Origin: Hydrogenophaga sp. SL48
GTDB taxonomy: Bacteria > Pseudomonadota > Gammaproteobacteria > Burkholderiales > Burkholderiaceae_C
Reading direction: 5' to 3'
Assembly (NCBI RefSeq): GCF_021729865.1
Contig: NZ_CP063400.1
Coordinates: 4,526,001-4,590,000 of the forward strand
Length of the DNA: 64,000 nt
Under the pieces are notes generated by a model that was not told the origin of the DNA, made no database searches, and saw nothing but the letters and a program-made list of their open reading frames with translations. This document shows, piece by piece, positions 5,474 to 63,111 of the stretch. A program made the position numbers and the translations under genes. Numbering within the stretch: the stretch's first letter is position 1; every line of letters starts with the position of its first letter.

Positions 5474-6052
5474 ATGTCACTGATCCAGGTTCGCAAACGC
5501 CAGCTGCTGGTCGAAACCATCTTTCACGAGGGCGGCCCGCCGGCCGCCGTGCCGCTGCGCATGGCCGCCGCGCTGGCCGTGGTGCGCAACCCGTATGCGG
5601 GCCGTTATGAGCCCGACCTGCTGCCGTTCATGGCCGAGCTGCGCACGCTCGGCCGCGAGCTGGCCGAAGAGCTGGTGCAGGTGCTCGGGCGCGACCGTGT
5701 CCAGGCCTACGGCAAGGCGGCCATCGTGGGCGTGAACGGCGAGCTGGAACACGGCGCCGTGTGGCACGAAGCCGGCGGCTGGGCCATGCGCGCGGCGCTG
5801 GGCGAACCCAAGGCCATCGTGCCGGCCGCCAAGGCCGTGGCCAGCGCCGGTTACCGGCTGATGGTGCCGCTGCACCACACCCAGGCAGCCTACGTGCGCA
5901 GCCACTTCAACGCCATGGAGGTGGGCGTGCAGGACGGGCCGCGGCCCGACGAAATCGTGTTCGGCCTGGTGATGGCGAACGGCGGGCGCGTGCATTCGCG
6001 CCTGGGCGGCCTCACGGTGGACCAGATCCGGGTGAACGACGGTCAGCGCTGA
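5474..6052 (+). CDS. AA_synth (DUF1185) family protein
   Basis: A 192-residue protein of the amino acid synthesis (AA_synth, DUF1185) family, a set of conserved proteins with no proven reaction. The sequence is compact, without signal or membrane segment. Conserved stretches include ALAVVRNPYAGRY, KAAIVGVNGELEHGA and EIVFGLVMANGGRVHSR. It starts 57 bases after the LysR gene on the same strand and is followed by a clear hairpin terminator at 6062-6083, so it probably shares a transcript with the regulator. Relatives often sit beside genes for aromatic and amino-acid catabolism, in keeping with the neighbourhood. Function remains unknown. Confidence 0.85.
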   Translation: MSLIQVRKRQLLVETIFHEGGPPAAVPLRMAAALAVVRNPYAGRYEPDLLPFMAELRTLGRELAEELVQVLGRDRVQAYGKAAIVGVNGELEHGAVWHEAGGWAMRAALGEPKAIVPAAKAVASAGYRLMVPLHHTQAAYVRSHFNAMEVGVQDGPRPDEIVFGLVMANGGRVHSRLGGLTVDQIRVNDGQR

Positions 6053-6061
6053 GCGCGAACG

Positions 6062-6083
6062 ACCGCCCGGAGGGCGGTTTTTT
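6062..6083 (+). terminator. Intrinsic terminator after the AA_synth gene
   Basis: The stem ACCGCCC-GGA-GGGCGGT is followed by six T residues, 9 bases after the stop codon. It ends rightward transcription just before the duplicated DnaA-box region. Confidence 0.85.
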
Positions 6084-6290
6084 GCACAAAGCTGTGTATA
6101 ACTTTTTAAGAAGCAGGTAGTTATCCACATCACCTGGACAAGTTCGCCAGTTGTCCCCGTTGGCGCGCGCCAGCAACAGGGCCCTCTGCACACGGTTTCT
6201 GGCGACGCAAGTGCTTGATTCGTCAAAAGAAAAGCCGCTTGTCCACAAAAAATGACGCCCTCTACTACTACGACTACTTTTAAATAAGAC
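6083..6290 (+). repeat. Origin-like unit A
   Basis: First copy of the 319-base-offset repeat. It begins TGCACAAAGCTGTGTATAA. It aligns without gaps to unit B through the shared word GCAAGTGCTTGA (6207-6218) and the CTA-triplet tract, then loses gap-free alignment in the AT-rich flank. Between the boxes the two copies have diverged, while box sequence and spacing stayed fixed. Confidence 0.8.
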
Positions 6291-6401
6291 AGTAAGAGCT
6301 GGTAGCAGAACAACCCGAAAACCGAACCCCCTGCGCCGGCCTGAACACTGTTTTTTGAAAAACGGCCGTCGGACCGGTTCCGGAGTCCCATCGATGGGTT
6401 C

Positions 6402-6609
6402 TGCACAAGGCTGTGTATAAATTTCCAATAACCCGGTGGTTATCCACAGACTGTGGTCAAAGTCGGGATTTGTCCCCGTTTCAAGACACGGGCAACAGCC
6501 CCCGCTCAACAGCCTTTTTTGCGGTGCAAGTGCTTGAAAAATATCAAGAAAACCCGCTTGTCCACACAAAACCGCGCCCTCTACTACTACGACTATTTTT
6601 ATTAAAGCT
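6402..6609 (+). repeat. Origin-like unit B
   Basis: Second copy, beginning TGCACAAGGCTGTGTATAA. Box spacing equals unit A: 28 bases between the first two boxes, 118 to the TTGTCCACA box, 23 to the CTA tract. The AT-rich flank after the triplets (TTTTTATTAAAG) precedes a strong hairpin at 6634-6666. The 90-base linker between the units contains the 12-base palindrome CCCATCGATGGG (6387-6398). Confidence 0.8.
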
Positions 6610-6633
6610 ATAGAGAGATAGCAGAGGGAAAAA

Positions 6634-6807: not shown

Positions 6808-9486
6808 TCAGAGCGTGTGCGTCACCAATTTGAAGTCCGGGTCTTCCGGGAAAGGCTTGATCTGGTAGCCCAGGCCCTTCATGAGCTTGAGCATGCCGGG
6901 GTTGTTGGCCAGCACCAGGCCCTCGATCTCGGCCAGGCCTTTGTCGCGGGCCTCTTCCATGATGCTGAGCATCAGGCGCGAGCCCAGGCCCTTGCCGTTG
7001 AAGTCGTCGGCCACCACCAGCGAGAACTCGCAGCTCGACTTGTCGGGGTTGGTGATGTAGCGCGAAACGCCCACGATGCGCTCGGTCTCGACCATGTCGC
7101 CGTCTTCGCCGGCCTGCCGGGTGCGGTGGATAGCCACCAGCGCCATTTCGCGGTCGTAGTCGATCAGGGTCAGGCGCGAGAGCATGGAGGCCGGCAGCTC
7201 GGTCATGCTGGACACGAAGCGGTAGTAGCGGCTTTCGGGCGAGAGGTTCTGCACCAGGTCCTGCAGCATCTGCGCGTCGTCGGGGTGGATCGGACGGATG
7301 GTGTACTCGCCGCCGCCGCGCAGCGGCCAGACCTGCTCGTAACGCGCCGGGTAGGGCAGGATGGCCAGGTGGGCGTAGTTGCGGGCCGTGGCGGGCGCGC
7401 TCTCGATCACGATGCGCGCGTCCACGGCGACCGCGCCGTTTTCGTCCACGATGATCGGGTTGATGTCCATCTCGCGCAGCTGCGGCAGCTCACACACCAT
7501 TTCCGAGACGCGCAGCAGCACATGCTCCAGCATGTCCATGTCCACCGCGCTGGCGCCGCGCCACTCGCCCAGGGTCTCGGCCACGCGCGAGCGCTCGATC
7601 AGGCGGCGCGCCAGGAACTGGTTGAGCGGCGGCAGCTCCATGGCGCGGTCGTTGATCAGCTCGATCATGGTGCCGCCGGCGCCGAAGGCGATCACCGGGC
7701 CGAAGGGGTCGTCGGTCACCAGGCCGATGCAGAGCTCGCGCCCGCGCCTGCTCTGCGCCATCTTCTGGATCGTCACGCCGTTGATCTTCGCGCCCGGCTG
7801 CAGCCTGGCCACGGCCTGCAGCATGGTGTTGTAGACGTCGCGCACGGCGGTGGCGTTCATGACGTTGAGCGCCACGCCGTTGACGTCGCTCTTGTGGCTG
7901 ATGTCGGGCGAGTCGATCTTGAGCGCCACCGGGTAACCCAGCTGGGTCGCGATCATCATGGCCTCGTTGGCGCTGCGCGCCAGGATGGTCTGGGTGACCG
8001 GGATGTGGAAGGCCGAGAGCAGGGCCTTGGACTCCATCTCGGTCAGCACCTTGCGGCGCTCGGTGAGCACGTTTTCGATCAGCAGGCGCGCGCCCTCGAT
8101 GTCGGGCTGGGCCAGGGTCGAGAGCGGTGGCGGCGTCTGCTGCAGCAGCTGCTGGTTCTGGTAGAAGCTGGCGATGTTGCCGAAGGCGCCCACGGCGGCC
8201 TCGGGCGTGCGGAAACTGGGGATGTTGGCCTGGGCCAGCACCTCGCGCGCCTCGCCCACCGAGGCGTCGCCCATCCAGCAGCACAGCAGGGGCTTGCTCA
8301 GCTGGGTCTTGAGATCGGCCATGGCGCGGGCGACATCAGCCGCGTCCACGCCGGCCTTGGGCGAATGCACCACCAGCACACCGTCCACCGAGCGGTCGCG
8401 GCCGGCGGCGTCAATGGCCGCGCGGTAGTGCTCGGCGCTGGCCTCCTCGGACACGTCGATCAGGTCGTGGAGCGTGGCCAGGGCCGGCATCTGGGGCTGC
8501 AGGGCGGCGACCGCCTCAGGCGAGAGCTTGCCCAGCTGCAGACCGATCTCGCTGGCCCAGTCGGCCGCCAGCACGCCCGGGCCGCCGCCGTTGGTCACGA
8601 TGGCCAGGCGCTTGCCCACGGGGCGGTAGCGCGAGGCCAGGCATTTGGCGGCGGAAAACAACTCGACGAAGGACCGCACGCGCACCGCGCCGGCGCGGCG
8701 CAGGGCCGAGTCGAACACGTCGTCGCTGCCCACGATGGCGCCGCTGTGGGTCTGCGCGGCCTCGTTGCCGGCGGGCTTGCGGCCGGCCTTCAGCACCACC
8801 ACCGGCTTGGCGTTGGCCGCGGCGCGCAGCGCGCTCATGAAGCGGCGCGCGTTGGAGATGCCCTCCATGTAGACCACGATGCTGTGCGTTTGCGCGTCGG
8901 AGGCGAGGAAGTCGAGCACCTGGGCGATGTCCACCGCCGTCTTGGGGCCGAGCGAGACCACGGTGGAAAACCCCACGCCGTTCTGGCTCGCCCAGTCCAG
9001 GATCGACGAGGTGAGCGCGCCCGACTGCGACACCAGCGCCAGCGGGCCGATGGTGGTCAGCGGGCCGGCCACGCTGGCGTTCAGGCCGATGCGTGGGCGC
9101 TGGAAACCCAGGCTGTTGGGGCCGAGCAGCTGCATGCCGTGGCGCCGTGCCACCTGGTGCATGTCGGACGCCACGTCGGCGTTGGCGCCGCTGCCGATCA
9201 CCAGCGCGGCCTTGCACTTGATGCGCCCGGCGATCTCCAGCGCCGCCACCGCCTCGGCGGGTGGCAGGGCAATGATGGCGAGGTCGGCACGCGTCTGGGC
9301 CAATTCAGCCAGCGTGCCGCTGGTGTGGATGTCGAGGAAGACGAATTTGCCGGTGAAGCGCTGCGCGGTCAGCGCGGCCGTCAGGTTGCGCGCGTGGGCG
9401 GTCTGTCCGTCGGGGTCGTCGTGGTTGCCCACGAAGACCGCGATGGTGTCGGGTTGAAACAGCGGGGTGAGGTAGTGTTTGTCCAT
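6808..9486 (-). CDS. Protein lysine acetyltransferase, Pat/PatZ type (NDP-forming acyl-CoA synthetase-GNAT fusion)
   Basis: An 892-residue fusion. Residues 1 to about 700 form the ADP-forming acetyl-CoA synthetase-like part: CoA-binding fold, ligase segment with QTHSGAIVGSDD, and ATP-grasp region with HKSDVNGVALN. From about 730 a GNAT acetyltransferase domain follows (YTIRPIHPDDAQMLQ, then VVADDFNGKGLGSRLM for acetyl-CoA). Such proteins acetylate lysines of metabolic enzymes, classically acetyl-CoA synthetase. Translation may start at this ATG or at an upstream in-frame TTG at 9504; the ATG is preferred because it gives the usual family N-terminus. It follows the deacetylase-family gene on the same strand, hinting at paired control of protein acetylation. 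Confidence 0.92.
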   Translation of the reverse strand: MDKHYLTPLFQPDTIAVFVGNHDDPDGQTAHARNLTAALTAQRFTGKFVFLDIHTSGTLAELAQTRADLAIIALPPAEAVAALEIAGRIKCKAALVIGSGANADVASDMHQVARRHGMQLLGPNSLGFQRPRIGLNASVAGPLTTIGPLALVSQSGALTSSILDWASQNGVGFSTVVSLGPKTAVDIAQVLDFLASDAQTHSIVVYMEGISNARRFMSALRAAANAKPVVVLKAGRKPAGNEAAQTHSGAIVGSDDVFDSALRRAGAVRVRSFVELFSAAKCLASRYRPVGKRLAIVTNGGGPGVLAADWASEIGLQLGKLSPEAVAALQPQMPALATLHDLIDVSEEASAEHYRAAIDAAGRDRSVDGVLVVHSPKAGVDAADVARAMADLKTQLSKPLLCCWMGDASVGEAREVLAQANIPSFRTPEAAVGAFGNIASFYQNQQLLQQTPPPLSTLAQPDIEGARLLIENVLTERRKVLTEMESKALLSAFHIPVTQTILARSANEAMMIATQLGYPVALKIDSPDISHKSDVNGVALNVMNATAVRDVYNTMLQAVARLQPGAKINGVTIQKMAQSRRGRELCIGLVTDDPFGPVIAFGAGGTMIELINDRAMELPPLNQFLARRLIERSRVAETLGEWRGASAVDMDMLEHVLLRVSEMVCELPQLREMDINPIIVDENGAVAVDARIVIESAPATARNYAHLAILPYPARYEQVWPLRGGGEYTIRPIHPDDAQMLQDLVQNLSPESRYYRFVSSMTELPASMLSRLTLIDYDREMALVAIHRTRQAGEDGDMVETERIVGVSRYITNPDKSSCEFSLVVADDFNGKGLGSRLMLSIMEEARDKGLAEIEGLVLANNPGMLKLMKGLGYQIKPFPEDPDFKLVTHTL

Positions 9487-9528
9487 AAGAGGTGTTGTTG
9501 TCAACGGAGCGCGTGACCGGATTCAGCA

Positions 9529-57813: not shown

Positions 57814-57890
57814 CGGCAAAGAAGCGGCAAAGGCGGGTTGATGGGAAAATAGCGGGCTTTCCGCCGGGCCGGGTCTGGTCCGCCGGGGTG

Positions 57891-57906
57891 TGTTTCACGT
57901 GAAACA
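57891..57906. other. parS site 1
   Basis: TGTTTCACGTGAAACA is a perfect 16-base palindrome identical to the canonical chromosomal ParB-binding parS sequence. It lies 55 bases before the mnmG start in the divergent promoter. Confidence 0.95.
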
Positions 57907-57961
57907 TCGCCGCCTGCATTGTCGGGCACAGACCCCCCGCTTGTGTCCCTGGAGCCGTTTC

Positions 57962-59959
57962 ATGTTGTACCCCCAAGAGTTTGATGTCATCGTCGTCGGT
58001 GGTGGCCACGCCGGCACAGAGGCCGCGCTGGCGGCCGCGCGCATGGGCTGCACCACGCTGCTGCTCACGCACAACATCGAAACGCTGGGCCAGATGAGCT
58101 GCAACCCCAGCATCGGCGGCATCGGCAAGGGCCACCTGGTGAAAGAGGTGGACGCGCTGGGCGGGGCGATGGCGCTGGCCACGGACGAGGGCGGCATCCA
58201 GTTCCGAATCCTCAACAGCAGCAAAGGCCCTGCGGTGCGCGCGACCCGCGCCCAGGCCGACCGCATTCTGTACAAGGCCGCCATCCGCCGCATGCTGGAG
58301 AACCAGCCGAACCTGTGGCTGTTCCAGCAGGCGGTGGACGACCTGATGGTGGAGGGCGACCGGGTGGTGGGCGCCGTCACGCAGGTGGGCATCAAATTCC
58401 GCAGCCGCACAGTGGTGCTGACCGCGGGCACTTTTCTGGATGGCAAGATCCACGTCGGCCTGAACAACTATGCCGCTGGCCGCGCGGGCGATCCACCGGC
58501 CGTGTCGCTCTCGGCCAGGCTCAAGGAGTTGAAACTGCCGCAGGCGCGCCTGAAAACCGGCACGCCGCCGCGCCTGGACGGCCGCAGCATCGACTATTCG
58601 AAGTGCACCGAACAGCCCGGCGACGGCGTGCCCGGCGGCATGAACCCCGACCAGCCGGTGCCGGTGTTCAGCTTCATGGGGCAATCGGTGCCGCACCCGA
58701 AACAGGTGCCGTGCTGGATCACCCACACCAACCTGCGCACGCACGAGATCATCCGCTCCGGCTTCGACCGCAGCCCCATGTTCACCGGCAAGATCGAGGG
58801 CGTGGGTCCGCGCTACTGCCCGAGCGTGGAAGACAAGATCAACCGCTTCGCCGACAAGGACAGCCACCAGATCTTCCTGGAGCCCGAGGGCCTGACGACG
58901 CACGAGGTCTACCCCAACGGCATCAGCACCAGCCTGCCGTTCGACATTCAGTACGCGCTGGTGCGCAGCATGCCGGGGCTGGAAAACGCCCACATCCTGC
59001 GCCCGGGCTACGCCATCGAATACGACTACTTCGACCCGCGCTCGCTCAAGAACAGCTTCGAGACGAAACAGATCCAGGGCCTGTTCTTCGCCGGTCAGAT
59101 CAACGGCACCACGGGCTACGAAGAAGCTGCCGCCCAGGGCCTGTTCGCCGGGCTCAACGCCGCGCTGCAGGTGAAAGGCGAGGCGCCTTGGCTGCCGCGC
59201 CGCGACGAGGCTTACCTGGGTGTGCTGGTGGACGACCTGGTGACTCAGGGCGTGACCGAGCCCTACCGCATGTTCACCAGCCGGGCCGAGTTCCGTCTGC
59301 AGCTGCGCGAAGACAACGCCGACATGCGCTTGACCGAAGTCGGTCGTCAGCTGGGCCTGGTGGACGACGCGCGTTGGAACGCCTTCAGCCGCAAACGCGA
59401 CGCCGTGGCGCGGGAAACCGAACGCCTCAAGTCCACCTGGGTGAACCCGCGCAACCTGCCGGCGGCCGAGAGCGAGCGGGTGCTGGGCAAGACCATCGAA
59501 CACGAACACAACCTGTTCGACCTGCTGCGCCGCCCGGGCGTGGGTTACGCCGACCTGCTGGGCATGGACGGGGGCAAGTACCACCCGGTGGCTCGGCCGG
59601 ACGATGAAGACGCCCGTCCGGTGGTTTCACGTGAAACACTGGGCGAGCTGCACGACCCGGTGGTGGAACAGGTGGAGATCGCGGCCAAGTACTCGGGCTA
59701 CATCGACCGCCAGAAGGACGAGGTGGAGCGCGCCTCGCACCACGAGCACCTGAAGCTGCCGGCCGAGCTGGACTACGCGCAGGTCACGGCCCTGTCGTTC
59801 GAGGCGCGGCAGAAGCTGGCGAAACACCGGCCGGAGACCCTGGGTCAGGCCGCACGCATCTCGGGCATCACCCCGGCCAGCATTTCGCTGTTGATGATTC
59901 ACCTGAAAAAAGGTGGCTTCAAGGGGTTCGCGCGTTTGACGGAAGAGCAGGGCGCATGA
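57962..59959 (+). CDS. mnmG: tRNA uridine-5-carboxymethylaminomethyl synthesis enzyme MnmG (GidA)
   Basis: A 665-residue FAD enzyme that, with MnmE, modifies wobble uridine 34 of several tRNAs. [21 protein letters not shown] is the FAD-binding motif, followed by [37 protein letters not shown] (in parts) and [19 protein letters not shown]. The C-terminal helical part binds MnmE and tRNA. The ATG at 57962 is the usual start; the frame is open upstream across parS 1. rsmG overlaps the stop as ATGA. parS site 2 lies inside the coding region. The gene is a marker of the origin region in many bacteria. Confidence 0.97.
59623..59638. other. parS site 2, inside mnmG
   Basis: GGTTTCACGTGAAACA differs from the consensus only at the first base. 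It lies in the C-terminal coding part of mnmG, reading VVSRETLG in the protein. Confidence 0.9.
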
Positions 59960-60621
59960 GTTCATCGGCTTTGAAGCCGGCCCTGGAGGCTGGGCTGAAT
60001 CAACTCGGCTTGGCCTTGTCGGCCGCACAGATCGACCAGTTGCTGGCCTACCAGGACCTGATCGCCAAGTGGAACAAGGTCTACAACCTGACCGCAGTGC
60101 GCGACCCGCAGGAAATGCTCACCCACCATCTGCTGGACAGCCTCGCCGCCATCCCGCCGCTGCTGCGCCAGACCGGCGGGCAGTCCGTGAAGTTGCTGGA
60201 TGTCGGTTCGGGCGGCGGGCTGCCGGGTGTGGTGATCGCCATCACCTGCCCGCAGATTCAGGTGCATTGTGTGGACACGGTGCTCAAGAAGGCCACCTTC
60301 ATCCAGCAGGTGGCGGCATCGCTCAAGCTGCCGAACCTGCGCGGCATCCATGCGCGGGTGGAATCCTTGAAAGCAGAAGAGGGCGGTGGTTACGACGTGG
60401 TCTGCTCCCGCGCGTTCGCCTCGCTGGTGGACTTCACCACCTGGTCGCGTCCGGCGCTGAAACCCGGGGCGGTGTGGATGGCGATGAAAGGCAAACACCC
60501 TGCGGATGAGCTGGCCGCCTTGCCCTCTGAGGTGTCGGTGTTTCACGTGGAACAGTTGGTGGTTCCGGGGTTGGATGCTGAGCGGTGCATCGTGTGGCTT
60601 CGGCCTGCTTCGTTGGCTTGA
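59956..60621 (+). CDS. rsmG: 16S rRNA (guanine527-N7)-methyltransferase RsmG (GidB)
   Basis: A 221-residue SAM-dependent methyltransferase that makes m7G527 in 16S r[23 protein letters not shown] is the conserved substrate-side motif and [17 protein letters not shown] binds [14 protein letters not shown] is the third conserved block. The start overlaps the mnmG stop by four bases. parS site 3 is within its 3-prime part. The coupled mnmG-rsmG pair ahead of parA is the standard origin-proximal order. Confidence 0.96.
60539..60554. other. parS site 3, inside rsmG
   Basis: TGTTTCACGTGGAACA matches the parS consensus with one mismatch in the right arm. It is the third site in 2.7 kb. Confidence 0.85.
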
Positions 60622-61082
60622 GTTCTGTTTCTCGCTGAGACCTCGCGCCAGGCCGATGGCGACATGCGCGTTCTCCGGCCCAGGTATTCGAATCTCCCCC
60701 TGTGCCGCTTGCGGCCCGGCAAAGCCGGTTCCGCGGCATGTCTTGCTGAGCGCGCCGCCGCACATCGCAACCGCCCTGTGAGCAGCGCCCGGGTGTTGTT
60801 CTGAAAGAAAGCCATTGCGCCACTGGAGGGGGCTGTGGCGTGTGGAGGGGCGGCGGGACGATTCGCGGTTGCCACAGAGTGGGCGTCCCAGGGCGGTGTT
60901 GACGCACGGGCAGATGCGCCCAGCCCCATTCGCCTGCGAGCGAGACCAGAGCCCAGCCACGCGACGCAGCCCCCTCGTAAGCAACATCTCAGAGCACGCA
61001 GAAGCACAAACCCCAGAAAGCCAAGCAGAAGAAAACAGCGCTCACGTAAACTCCCCGTTCCACCCGAGAGAGAAAGCCCACC
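60622..61082. other. 461-base intergenic region with truncated repeat R13
   Basis: A truncated copy of the stem-loop repeat lies at about 60697-60742 (CCCCCTGTGCCGC, then CCCGGC-AAA-GCCGG), 75 bases after the rsmG stop; the left basal arm is missing. The remaining 340 bases show no convincing reading frame, terminator or DnaA box. It may be a decayed gene. The lysE promoter should be near its right end but cannot be pinned down. Confidence 0.5.
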
Positions 61083-61697
61083 ATGTTCGGCATCGCTGAC
61101 TACGGCGCGTTCGTCGCCGCCATCATCCTGTTCCTCGCCATTCCCGGCCCGGGCAACCTGGCGCTCATCACCTCCACCGGCAAAGGCGGCATCAAAGGGG
61201 GGCTCGCGGCCACCCTGGGCCTGATCGCTGGCGACCAGGTGCTCATGTGGGCCGCCGTGGCCGGTGTGGCCGCGCTGCTGACCGCCTACCCGGCCGCCTT
61301 CAACGCCGTGCAATGGCTCGGCGCCGCGTACCTCGCCTGGATCGGTTTCAAGATGCTCACCGCCAAGCCCGGCGACGCGCCCATCCTCAACATCCAGCCC
61401 CGCCAGTACTTCAGGCAGGCCTTTGTCATCACCCTGCTCAACCCCAAGGCCATCGTCTTCTACATGGCCTTCTTCCCGCTGTTCGTGGACCCGGCCAAGC
61501 ACCAGGGCCTGGTCACCTTCGGCGCCATGGCCATCACCATCGCGGTGCTGACCCTGGCCTACTGCGTCACCGTCATCCTGCTGACCCACTTTCTGGCCGA
61601 GCGCATGCGCGCCAACCCGAAGATCGGGCACACGCTGGAAAAGCTCGCTGGTGTCTTCCTCATCGGCTTCGGCATCAAGCTGGCCATCTCCAAATGA
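61083..61697 (+). CDS. LysE family translocator
   Basis: A 204-residue inner-membrane exporter with six hydrophobic helices. AIPGPGNLALITSTGKGGIKGG (in parts: AIPGPGNLALI, KGGIKGGLAATLG) is the LysE/RhtB signature near residues 20-45, and LNPKAIVFYMAFFPLFVDP is the second conserved block. Members export amino acids such as lysine, threonine, homoserine or cysteine; the substrate is not clear. GAGAGAG precedes the ATG. The stop overlaps the start of the next gene as ATGA. Confidence 0.93.
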   Translation: MFGIADYGAFVAAIILFLAIPGPGNLALITSTGKGGIKGGLAATLGLIAGDQVLMWAAVAGVAALLTAYPAAFNAVQWLGAAYLAWIGFKMLTAKPGDAPILNIQPRQYFRQAFVITLLNPKAIVFYMAFFPLFVDPAKHQGLVTFGAMAITIAVLTLAYCVTVILLTHFLAERMRANPKIGHTLEKLAGVFLIGFGIKLAISK

Positions 61698-62341
61698 CAT
61701 CCGCAGCCCAGCGCGCTCTGGCTTCCAGGCCCAGCAGGCTGCTCGGCCTGTGCGGCAGCCTTCGCCGGCAGTCCCGAAGCCGCGCCCTGCTGGACGCCAC
61801 CGGGCTGTTGGCACCTTGTTCGGCGGTGCCAGACCCGGTGGTTTTCAGGACCTTTGACCAGCTCGGGCAACTGCCCTTGTTCAACCCCGACGAAATGGCC
61901 TTGCCGACGGCCCATGTGCTGGCGCTGTGGGCGGCTGTTGACGACGCCGACGCCCTGGTCATTGCCAGCCCCGAATACGCGCACGGTGTCACCGGAACCC
62001 TCAAGAACGCCTTGGACTGGCTCGTGGGATACCCGCCGTTTGCCGACAAGCCCGTCGCGGTCTTCAACCCCTCGCACCGGGCGGACCACGCCGATCTGTC
62101 TCTGAAAGAAACCCTGCGCACCATGGCCGCCGACCTGATTCCCGGCGCCTGCCTGCGCATTCCTGTCACCGCCTGCGACCTGAGCGCGCCACAGCTGGCG
62201 TCCAGCTCGCCCTATCGCGAGCTGATCACGGAGGCGCTGCAGGCGGTGGGGCGGCATCTTCGGGAGCGATCCGGTTCACCGGGACTCCAGAATCGGGCGA
62301 CCGAACAAGGCAAACACTTCGACGCGAAAGAGACGGCGTGA
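61694..62341 (+). CDS. NADPH-dependent FMN reductase family protein
   Basis: A 215-residue flavodoxin-like oxidoreductase: LLGLCGSLRRQSRSRALLDA binds the FMN phosphate (in part GLCGSLRRQSRSRALL), ASPEYAHGVTGTLKNALDWLV is the flavin motif (in part SPEYAHGVTGTLKNALDW). The C-terminal 30 residues are polar and not conserved. Its start overlaps the lysE stop, and its stop shares one base with the parA ATG, so lysE, this gene and parA form one coupled run. Substrate unknown. Confidence 0.9.
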   Translation: MTSAAQRALASRPSRLLGLCGSLRRQSRSRALLDATGLLAPCSAVPDPVVFRTFDQLGQLPLFNPDEMALPTAHVLALWAAVDDADALVIASPEYAHGVTGTLKNALDWLVGYPPFADKPVAVFNPSHRADHADLSLKETLRTMAADLIPGACLRIPVTACDLSAPQLASSSPYRELITEALQAVGRHLRERSGSPGLQNRATEQGKHFDAKETA

Positions 62342-63111
62342 TGGCAAAGATATTCTGTGTGGCCAATCAGAAGGGCGGCGTCGGCAAGACCACCACCACC
62401 GTCAACCTCGCCGCCGGTCTGGCCAAGGTCGGGCAGCGCGTGCTGATGGTCGACCTCGACCCGCAGGGCAACGCGACCATGGGCTCGGGCGTGGACAAAC
62501 GCAGCATGGCGCTCTCGGTCTACGACGTGTTGCTGGAGTCGGCCACGGTCGCCGAAGCCGCCATCCTGTCCGAAAGATGCGGTTACAGCGTGCTCGGCGC
62601 CAACCGCGAACTGGCCGGTGCCGAGGTCGAGCTGGTCGAGCTGGAGCGACGCGACAAGCGCCTCAAGACCGCGCTCGCTGCCGTTGATGCCGACTATGAC
62701 TTCGTGCTGATCGATTGCCCGCCGAGCTTGAGCATGCTCACCCTCAACGGCCTGTGCGCGGCCCACGGCGTGATCGTGCCCATGCAGTGCGAGTACTTCG
62801 CGCTCGAAGGCCTGACCGACCTGGTGAACACCATCAAGCAGGTGCACGCCAACCTCAACCCCGACCTGCAGATCATCGGCCTGCTGCGCGTCATGTTCGA
62901 CCCGCGCATCACCCTGCAGCAGCAGGTCAGCGACCAGCTCAAGGCCCACTTCGGCGACAAGGTGTTCGACAGCGTGATCCCGCGCAACGTGCGCCTGGCC
63001 GAAGCGCCGAGCTACGGCCTGCCCGGCGTGGTGTTTGATCCGTCGGCGCGCGGCAGCCAGGCCTTCGTGGCCTTTGCCACCGAGATGGTGGCTCGCATCA
63101 ACCAGATGTGA
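62341..63111 (+). CDS. parA: Chromosome partitioning ATPase ParA (Soj)
   Basis: A 256-residue ParA with the deviant Walker A KGGVGKTTTT at residues 11-20, Walker A-prime MVDLDPQGNATMGSG and Walker B VLIDCPPSLSMLTLNG. The lack of an N-terminal helix-turn-helix marks it as a chromosomal, not plasmid P1-type, ParA. It drives segregation of ParB-bound parS DNA. The three parS sites lie 1.8-4.5 kb upstream. parB is not in the window and is expected just to the right. Confidence 0.96.
   Translation: MAKIFCVANQKGGVGKTTTTVNLAAGLAKVGQRVLMVDLDPQGNATMGSGVDKRSMALSVYDVLLESATVAEAAILSERCGYSVLGANRELAGAEVELVELERRDKRLKTALAAVDADYDFVLIDCPPSLSMLTLNGLCAAHGVIVPMQCEYFALEGLTDLVNTIKQVHANLNPDLQIIGLLRVMFDPRITLQQQVSDQLKAHFGDKVFDSVIPRNVRLAEAPSYGLPGVVFDPSARGSQAFVAFATEMVARINQM

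Follow-up and report, generated by a model that had tools for sequence, protein, structure and literature searches.

The intergenic interval described here is, with high likelihood, the origin (oriC) from which a Hydrogenophaga-like bacterium replicates its chromosome. It comprises two complete DnaA-box/DnaA-trio modules, arranged in tandem and facing the same way. The usual view gives a bacterial chromosome a single origin and, within it, a single unwinding site. The evidence for the origin comes from the anatomy of the interval, the density of DnaA boxes, the conservation of both copies and the distribution of the module across the family. From these features one would predict that DnaA binds, unwinds and fires here and that both copies are used in vivo; that both elements act is likewise a prediction, made from their conservation. 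The interval lies near the left end of the window, which is the whole 64-kb stretch of DNA analysed (C1:4,526,001-4,590,000 of the single 5,433,040-bp contig of genome G000).

Each unit carries, in order, a reverse TTATACACA, a forward TTATCCACA, TTGTCCCCG, GCAAGTGCTTG, TTGTCCACA, a 14-nt spacer, CTACTACTACGACTA and AT-rich DNA (Table 1). The shift of every motif from unit 1 to unit 2 is exactly 319 bases, so that TTATCCACA and TTGTCCACA stand 118 bp apart in both. The two units are identical at 161 of 226 positions, the best of 2000 shuffles reaching 84; identity is 76% in one sub-block (6080-6161 against 6399-6480) and 73% in another (6173-6305 against 6492-6624). The tandem arrangement with a 319-base offset that the earlier note had proposed is therefore confirmed, and its further suggestion of two complete unwinding elements fits the anatomy. 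The motif GCAAGTGCTTG occupies 6207-6217 in unit 1 and 6526-6536 in unit 2, and similar forms occur in many aligned units. Searches of the interval for Rfam RNA elements and for promoters returned nothing, and its three terminator-like sites do not differ significantly from the 1.6 found in shuffled sequence.

Table 1. Features of the two-unit interval and its surroundings, in window coordinates
Feature	Position	Strand	Remarks
Left flanking gene, AA_synth family (PF06684)	5474..6052	+	
Origin unit 1	6080..6305	+	complete DnaA-box/DnaA-trio module; repeat of unit 2 at offset 319
DnaA box TTATACACA, unit 1	6093..6101	-	
DnaA box TTATCCACA, unit 1	6121..6129	+	
TTGTCCCCG, unit 1	6151..6159	+	conserved motif, possible weak DnaA box
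Trio-proximal DnaA box TTGTCCACA, unit 1	6239..6247	+	
14-nt spacer, unit 1	6248..6261	+	
DnaA-trios CTACTACTACGACTA, unit 1	6262..6276	+	
AT-rich stretch past trios, unit 1	6277..6300	+	presumed melting region
Origin unit 2	6399..6624	+	second complete DnaA-box/DnaA-trio module, orientation as unit 1
DnaA box TTATACACA, unit 2	6412..6420	-	
DnaA box TTATCCACA, unit 2	6440..6448	+	
TTGTCCCCG, unit 2	6470..6478	+	conserved motif, possible weak DnaA box
Trio-proximal DnaA box TTGTCCACA, unit 2	6558..6566	+	
14-nt spacer, unit 2	6567..6580	+	
DnaA-trios CTACTACTACGACTA, unit 2	6581..6595	+	
AT-rich stretch past trios, unit 2	6596..6620	+	presumed melting region
Right flanking gene, CoA-ligase-like plus GNAT acetyltransferase (Pat-like)	6808..9504	-	
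mnmG, rsmG, LysE-family exporter, ParA-like ATPase	57890..63108	+	origin-domain genes 51 kb from units
parS-like sites	57891, 59623, 60539		57891 perfect; the others with one mismatch each
ParA-like ATPase	62338-63108		after mnmG/rsmG

The arrangement of a DnaA box, a spacer and DnaA-trios is that of the basal origin unwinding system (BUS), which the available portions of two papers describe for B. subtilis and other bacteria (PMC6669920, PMC8287927). The rule given in the accessible part of the second, a DnaA box at most 16 bp from at least three trios, holds in 1755 of 2070 predicted origins, and DnaA proteins from several species were used to test it in vitro (PMC8287927). Both units of the window conform, with a distance of 14 nt and with five triplets in CTACTACTACGACTA, and both continue beyond the trios into AT-rich DNA (CTTTTAAATAAG and TTTTTATTAAAG) in a window that is itself 60-70% GC. 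The departure from the BUS, as it is described in the available portions of these sources (PMC6669920, PMC8287927), is the presence of two complete tandem modules.

DnaA boxes are concentrated at this site. All four perfect TTATNCACA sites of the window fall within the two-unit interval. Chromosome-wide, the pattern TTRTNCACA has 88 sites (65 for the pattern read backwards as a control), and the six that lie inside the 474 bp of the units form the densest group, as is looked for in the intergenic DNA of a chromosomal oriC. The next densest group seen in the chromosome list has three sites in 279 bp (C1:2606322-2606600). Another small group, at C1:4447451-4447516, has two sites in 66 bp; it is possible that both groups are regulatory or titration sites. 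Runs of five C[TG]A triplets occur within 384 kb only in units 1 and 2.

The unit is conserved well beyond the present genome. An exact regular expression missed units with variant trios, and a looser scan and a sequence-only profile of 165 nt, R1, were used instead. R1 was derived from an alignment of 86 units from relatives and named records; 87 units had been scanned, and one from an Eremiobacterota record (L059) was excluded. It matches unit 1 at 6121-6284 (E=1.5e-29) and unit 2 at 6440-6602 (E=1.2e-27). Matches were found in 39 of 40 genomes of the window's genus and in 283 of 299 family genomes covering 122 of 126 genera, with no match in the other 16; since the sources of R1 are mostly Acidovorax and the window's genus, and the 299-genome and order surveys were filtered more strictly, weak units may be missed in these counts. 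All four sampled genomes of genus g67 (G101, G207, G280, G342) are without an R1 match, which suggests a diverged or different origin in that genus. In an order-wide sample of 200 genomes, 26 have a match at E<=0.001, and seven of those 26 belong to the family. Exact matches to the box-spacer-trio pattern are present as well in Merdimmobilis hominis, in an Eremiobacterota record and in a Clostridia record (L051, L059, L073).

Among single-contig family genomes R1 matches 40 of 40 at E<1e-9, the best non-unit match having E=0.0068; these 40, four of the genus and 36 from the 299-genome survey (G000 included), were picked by contig number among genomes that already matched or were of the same genus, and the single-contig genomes G289, G292, G319, G323, G331 and G332 were left out. 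The comparison with related Comamonadaceae that the earlier note had named as a check on the interval and its box spacing is thus strongly passed.

Doubling is frequent in the family. Two or three units (E<1e-5) are present in 20 of the 40 single-contig genomes, four of which have three; a single unit is all that was found in the other 20, in keeping with the sufficiency of one. Neighbouring units in the 20 multi-unit genomes are 267 bp to 28.6 kb apart, and in 18 of these genomes all units have the same orientation. By a hand count that includes some weak matches, 99 of the 299 family genomes have at least two R1 matches at E<=0.01. Within the window's genus, eight of 40 genomes have two units, one pair being 14 kb apart and another inverted at 12.4 kb. 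Among 37 exact-pattern stretches of named genomes two units were seen in 22, and in two more by a cruder regular expression; these stretches were picked for having one unit, and the two-unit share is not a rate. Genes, rdgC among them, lie between separated units in G291 and G263; in these two genomes and in G063 the modules are 4-10 kb apart. Outside the family, G042, G383 and G479 have two or three nearby weak matches.

Pairs in opposite orientation, 0.3-46 kb apart, occur in G341 (98512/119002), G205 (48958/95400), G527 (107647/120058) and G202 (2591202/2591515). Separated units with rdgC and other genes between them occur in two genera (L182, 4973-14218; L183, 5658-9904).

Both copies are kept in Hydrogenophaga sp. 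A37. A pair of units sits there between the same two genes, and each unit is identical to its counterpart at 211 of 226 positions; the spacer between the units is identical at 70 of 93 and the right spacer at 140 of 168. Within the boxes, TTGTCCCCG and the trios, 101 of 102 bases are identical, and the one substitution, at 6416, falls on the free position of the reverse box in unit 2. In a tree of all 86 units, whose bootstrap is not fully settled, 17 Acidovorax records have their upstream units together in a clade of 18 rows (99/99) and their downstream units in another of 22 rows (88/90), and the units of the window's genus, both window units included, are in a third (97/95). Since Acidovorax has two conserved types and the window's pair groups elsewhere, either the doubling recurred, the window's pair having arisen apart from that of Acidovorax, or the copies were homogenised.

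It is quite possible that the interval is oriC and that only one of its units fires, the other being a DnaA-loading or titrating arm, or a relic. The upstream (U1) and downstream (U2) units of Acidovorax have diverged: nine columns, one of them a gap, are fixed differently, the 17 records (L053-L086) have AAGTTGTTGTC in U1 against TTTTGTCCCCG in U2, and the fourth trio is CTG upstream against CGA downstream. The nine fixed differences would suggest a division of labour sooner than decay. The single-unit half of the complete relatives points the same way, as do the origins of B. subtilis and H. pylori, which in the available portion of one source have two box clusters and one unwinding site (PMC8235120). 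Yet at least 90% of the Acidovorax rows, in U1 and in U2 alike, conserve both boxes (box 1 and box 2) as well as the first trios. In the window and in A37, moreover, both units retain the boxes, the 14-nt spacing and the trios, and trios at a fixed spacing would be needless in a pure titrating arm.

The position of the unit relative to dnaA bears most directly on its identity as oriC. With distances counted from the start of the DnaA ATPase-domain match, a unit lies within 2.5 kb of dnaA in 12 of the 40 single-contig genomes; in 11 of the 40 it lies inside the dnaA-dnaN gap (tblastn), and in G166 it is upstream of dnaA. Ten of the 11 genomes with a unit in the gap carry none far from dnaA. In 28 of the 40 every unit is at least 17 kb away, the nearest being at 17-300 kb (median 60 kb). 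Because the same unit occupies the dnaA-dnaN gap in some genomes and is remote from dnaA in others, the present interval is very probably oriC. Relatives conserve it, and in some of them its homologue is an origin next to dnaA; the alternation between genomes is best read, from the sequences compared, as an oriC that moved. In the window's genome R1 finds no unit in the dnaA-dnaN gap, and its next match elsewhere has E=0.04. The box density, the presence of R1 in all of the single-contig genomes and the units in the gap together support the chromosome-origin claim of the earlier note.

Neither dnaA, mnmG (gidA) nor par genes adjoin the interval. Such neighbours are the usual companions of oriC and not a strict requirement. 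In this chromosome dnaA is at 4,411,456, about 121 kb from the units, the identity of dnaA and dnaN being confirmed by family model; mnmG and the parS-like sites are 51 kb off. Upstream of dnaA are two opposed boxes, TTATCCACA and TTGTCCACA (C1:4410977-4411035), which are likely to serve autoregulation. The lack of an adjacent dnaA, regarded as an oddity in the earlier note, is thus real, and it is less odd than it seemed because 28 of 40 relatives share it. Other elements of that description were found as expected: the flanking genes converge, and the region at 58-63 kb has a ParA-like ATPase and three parS-like sites, placed at the mnmG start, inside mnmG and in rsmG. Of 28 genus loci (L021-L048), 12 likewise have the CoA-ligase/GNAT gene of the right flank next to the unit; some of the 28 end before they could include it.

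A GC-skew minimum at the interval, which the earlier note expected, was not confirmed. In 60 samples of 20 kb, with linear drift removed, the minimum fell in the 4.27-Mb sample (C1:4265882), whose distance is about 0.27 Mb to the units and 0.15 Mb to dnaA; the maximum, at 1.55 Mb, stands diametrically opposite, and the undetrended minimum was at 0.19 Mb. Local tests are inconsistent. A contiguous skew curve over 4.33-4.71 Mb does not reach a minimum where the units lie. For strand-balanced fourfold-site skew the best break is at 4.60 Mb and its step is negative; a break at the unit position fits 14.7 log units worse and one at dnaA 15.8 worse. Pooled octamers give a change point at 4,539,387 (interval 4,535,034-4,546,235), 3-14 kb from the units, which lie outside the interval; single octamer motifs, GGGNAGGG included, disagree with the pooled set and show no break near the units.

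Two relatives gave no clearer picture. The best fourfold-site break in G267 is at 792 kb, against 673 kb for the unit and 973 kb for dnaA, and in G072 it is at 105 kb, with a negative step, the unit being at 139 kb. Neither raw local skew (G267, G072) nor fourfold-site skew (three genomes) switches cleanly at unit or dnaA. Searches for a doubled KOPS-like pattern and for an E. coli-type dif pattern found nothing.

These results might be taken to mean that the interval is a datA- or DARS-like site for titration or reactivation of DnaA and that the true origin is elsewhere, for example at dnaA, with its two upstream boxes 121 kb away, or near the skew minimum at 4.27 Mb. Such a reading is improbable. 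The chromosome has no other unit detectable with R1, and 11 of 40 relatives have a unit in the dnaA-dnaN gap, 10 of them with none far from dnaA. Around 4.27 Mb the closest listed boxes stand singly, at 4,226,581 and 4,244,620; since no cluster is listed there, the origin is still placed at the interval despite the skew, and the minimum at 4.27 Mb is perhaps noise or the trace of a past rearrangement. Derivation of the locus from an integrated plasmid or phage, or an assembly artefact as the source of the doubling, can be set aside almost entirely, nothing having been found in favour of either: a search of 72,556 plasmid records gave no hit, the genes on both sides have ordinary metabolic functions, and A37, a separate assembly, has the same doubling between the same genes.

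With the interval taken as oriC, a course of initiation can be proposed. DnaA would bind the boxes of each module and extend as a filament from TTGTCCACA over the 14-nt spacer onto the trio strand; the AT-rich DNA past the trios would then melt, and helicase would be loaded. One module is probably enough for this, since a single unit is all that was seen in half of the complete relatives examined. Same-strand tandem modules do not by themselves explain the loading of two opposed helicases. One helicase per module was considered as a general reason for doubling and rejected, all modules pointing the same way in 18 of the 20 multi-unit genomes. Because modules facing the same way leave the loading of the second helicase unsolved, the second copy would most likely provide redundancy, together with a higher chance or sharper timing of initiation. 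Loading of the second helicase is called unclear for B. subtilis as well, in the available part of one account (PMC10201434).

Comparison with known origins places the interval more precisely. It resembles the bipartite oriC of B. subtilis and Helicobacter pylori, where two DnaA-box clusters belong to one origin; in the portion of the source available, these clusters flank dnaA and one half has the unwinding site (PMC8235120). In the window, unlike in these bacteria, both halves have boxes and trios, and no gene, dnaA or other, lies between them. Cupriavidus metallidurans belongs to the same order as the window's bacterium. In its strain CH34 a GC-skew switch and three perfect DnaA boxes in 213 nt lie about 90 kb from dnaA (PMC2864759, in the part available), so that an oriC remote from dnaA has already been reported in a related genus and is not new; no duplicated trio module is described in the accessible part of that paper.

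Two oriC-like regions on one chromosome, for example in Ralstonia pickettii 12D, were proposed by Gao in 2015 from skew, neighbouring genes and box counts in four representative genomes, two of the pairs being 291 and 882 kb apart; that paper reports no evidence that two functional origins are used on one chromosome (PMC4403523). The copies described here differ from those pairs in being homologous modules that recur through the family, mostly 0.3-30 kb apart. Searches of openly licensed PMC papers listed no report of duplicated complete unwinding modules or of the oriC of the window's family. The interval is thus very probably ordinary as an oriC, unusual in having two complete modules, and an instance of a pattern that recurs family-wide.

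One genome may catch the origin in motion. G307 has a unit in the dnaA-dnaN gap (L185, 6492) and an inverted unit about 29 kb away (L251, 2131), near genes similar to the window's mnmG, rsmG and parA, and seems a candidate intermediate of relocation. The coexistence of the two positions in one genome suggests that the origin moves by duplication and loss. A bolder proposal, offered tentatively, is that chromosomes of this family are naturally multi-origin, with two or three complete and individually competent oriC modules working in parallel, in some cases with several genes between them, and that the origin migrates by duplication, use of both copies and loss of the old one. In practice, when such a chromosome is numbered from dnaA, its base 1 may be separated from the origin by tens to hundreds of kilobases. 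At least two homologous modules, in some cases kilobases apart with genes between, are present in between a third (99 of 299) and a half (20 of 40) of the family genomes examined, and the family would thus offer natural material for the study of two-origin use in one bacterium, of once-per-cycle initiation and of origin relocation.
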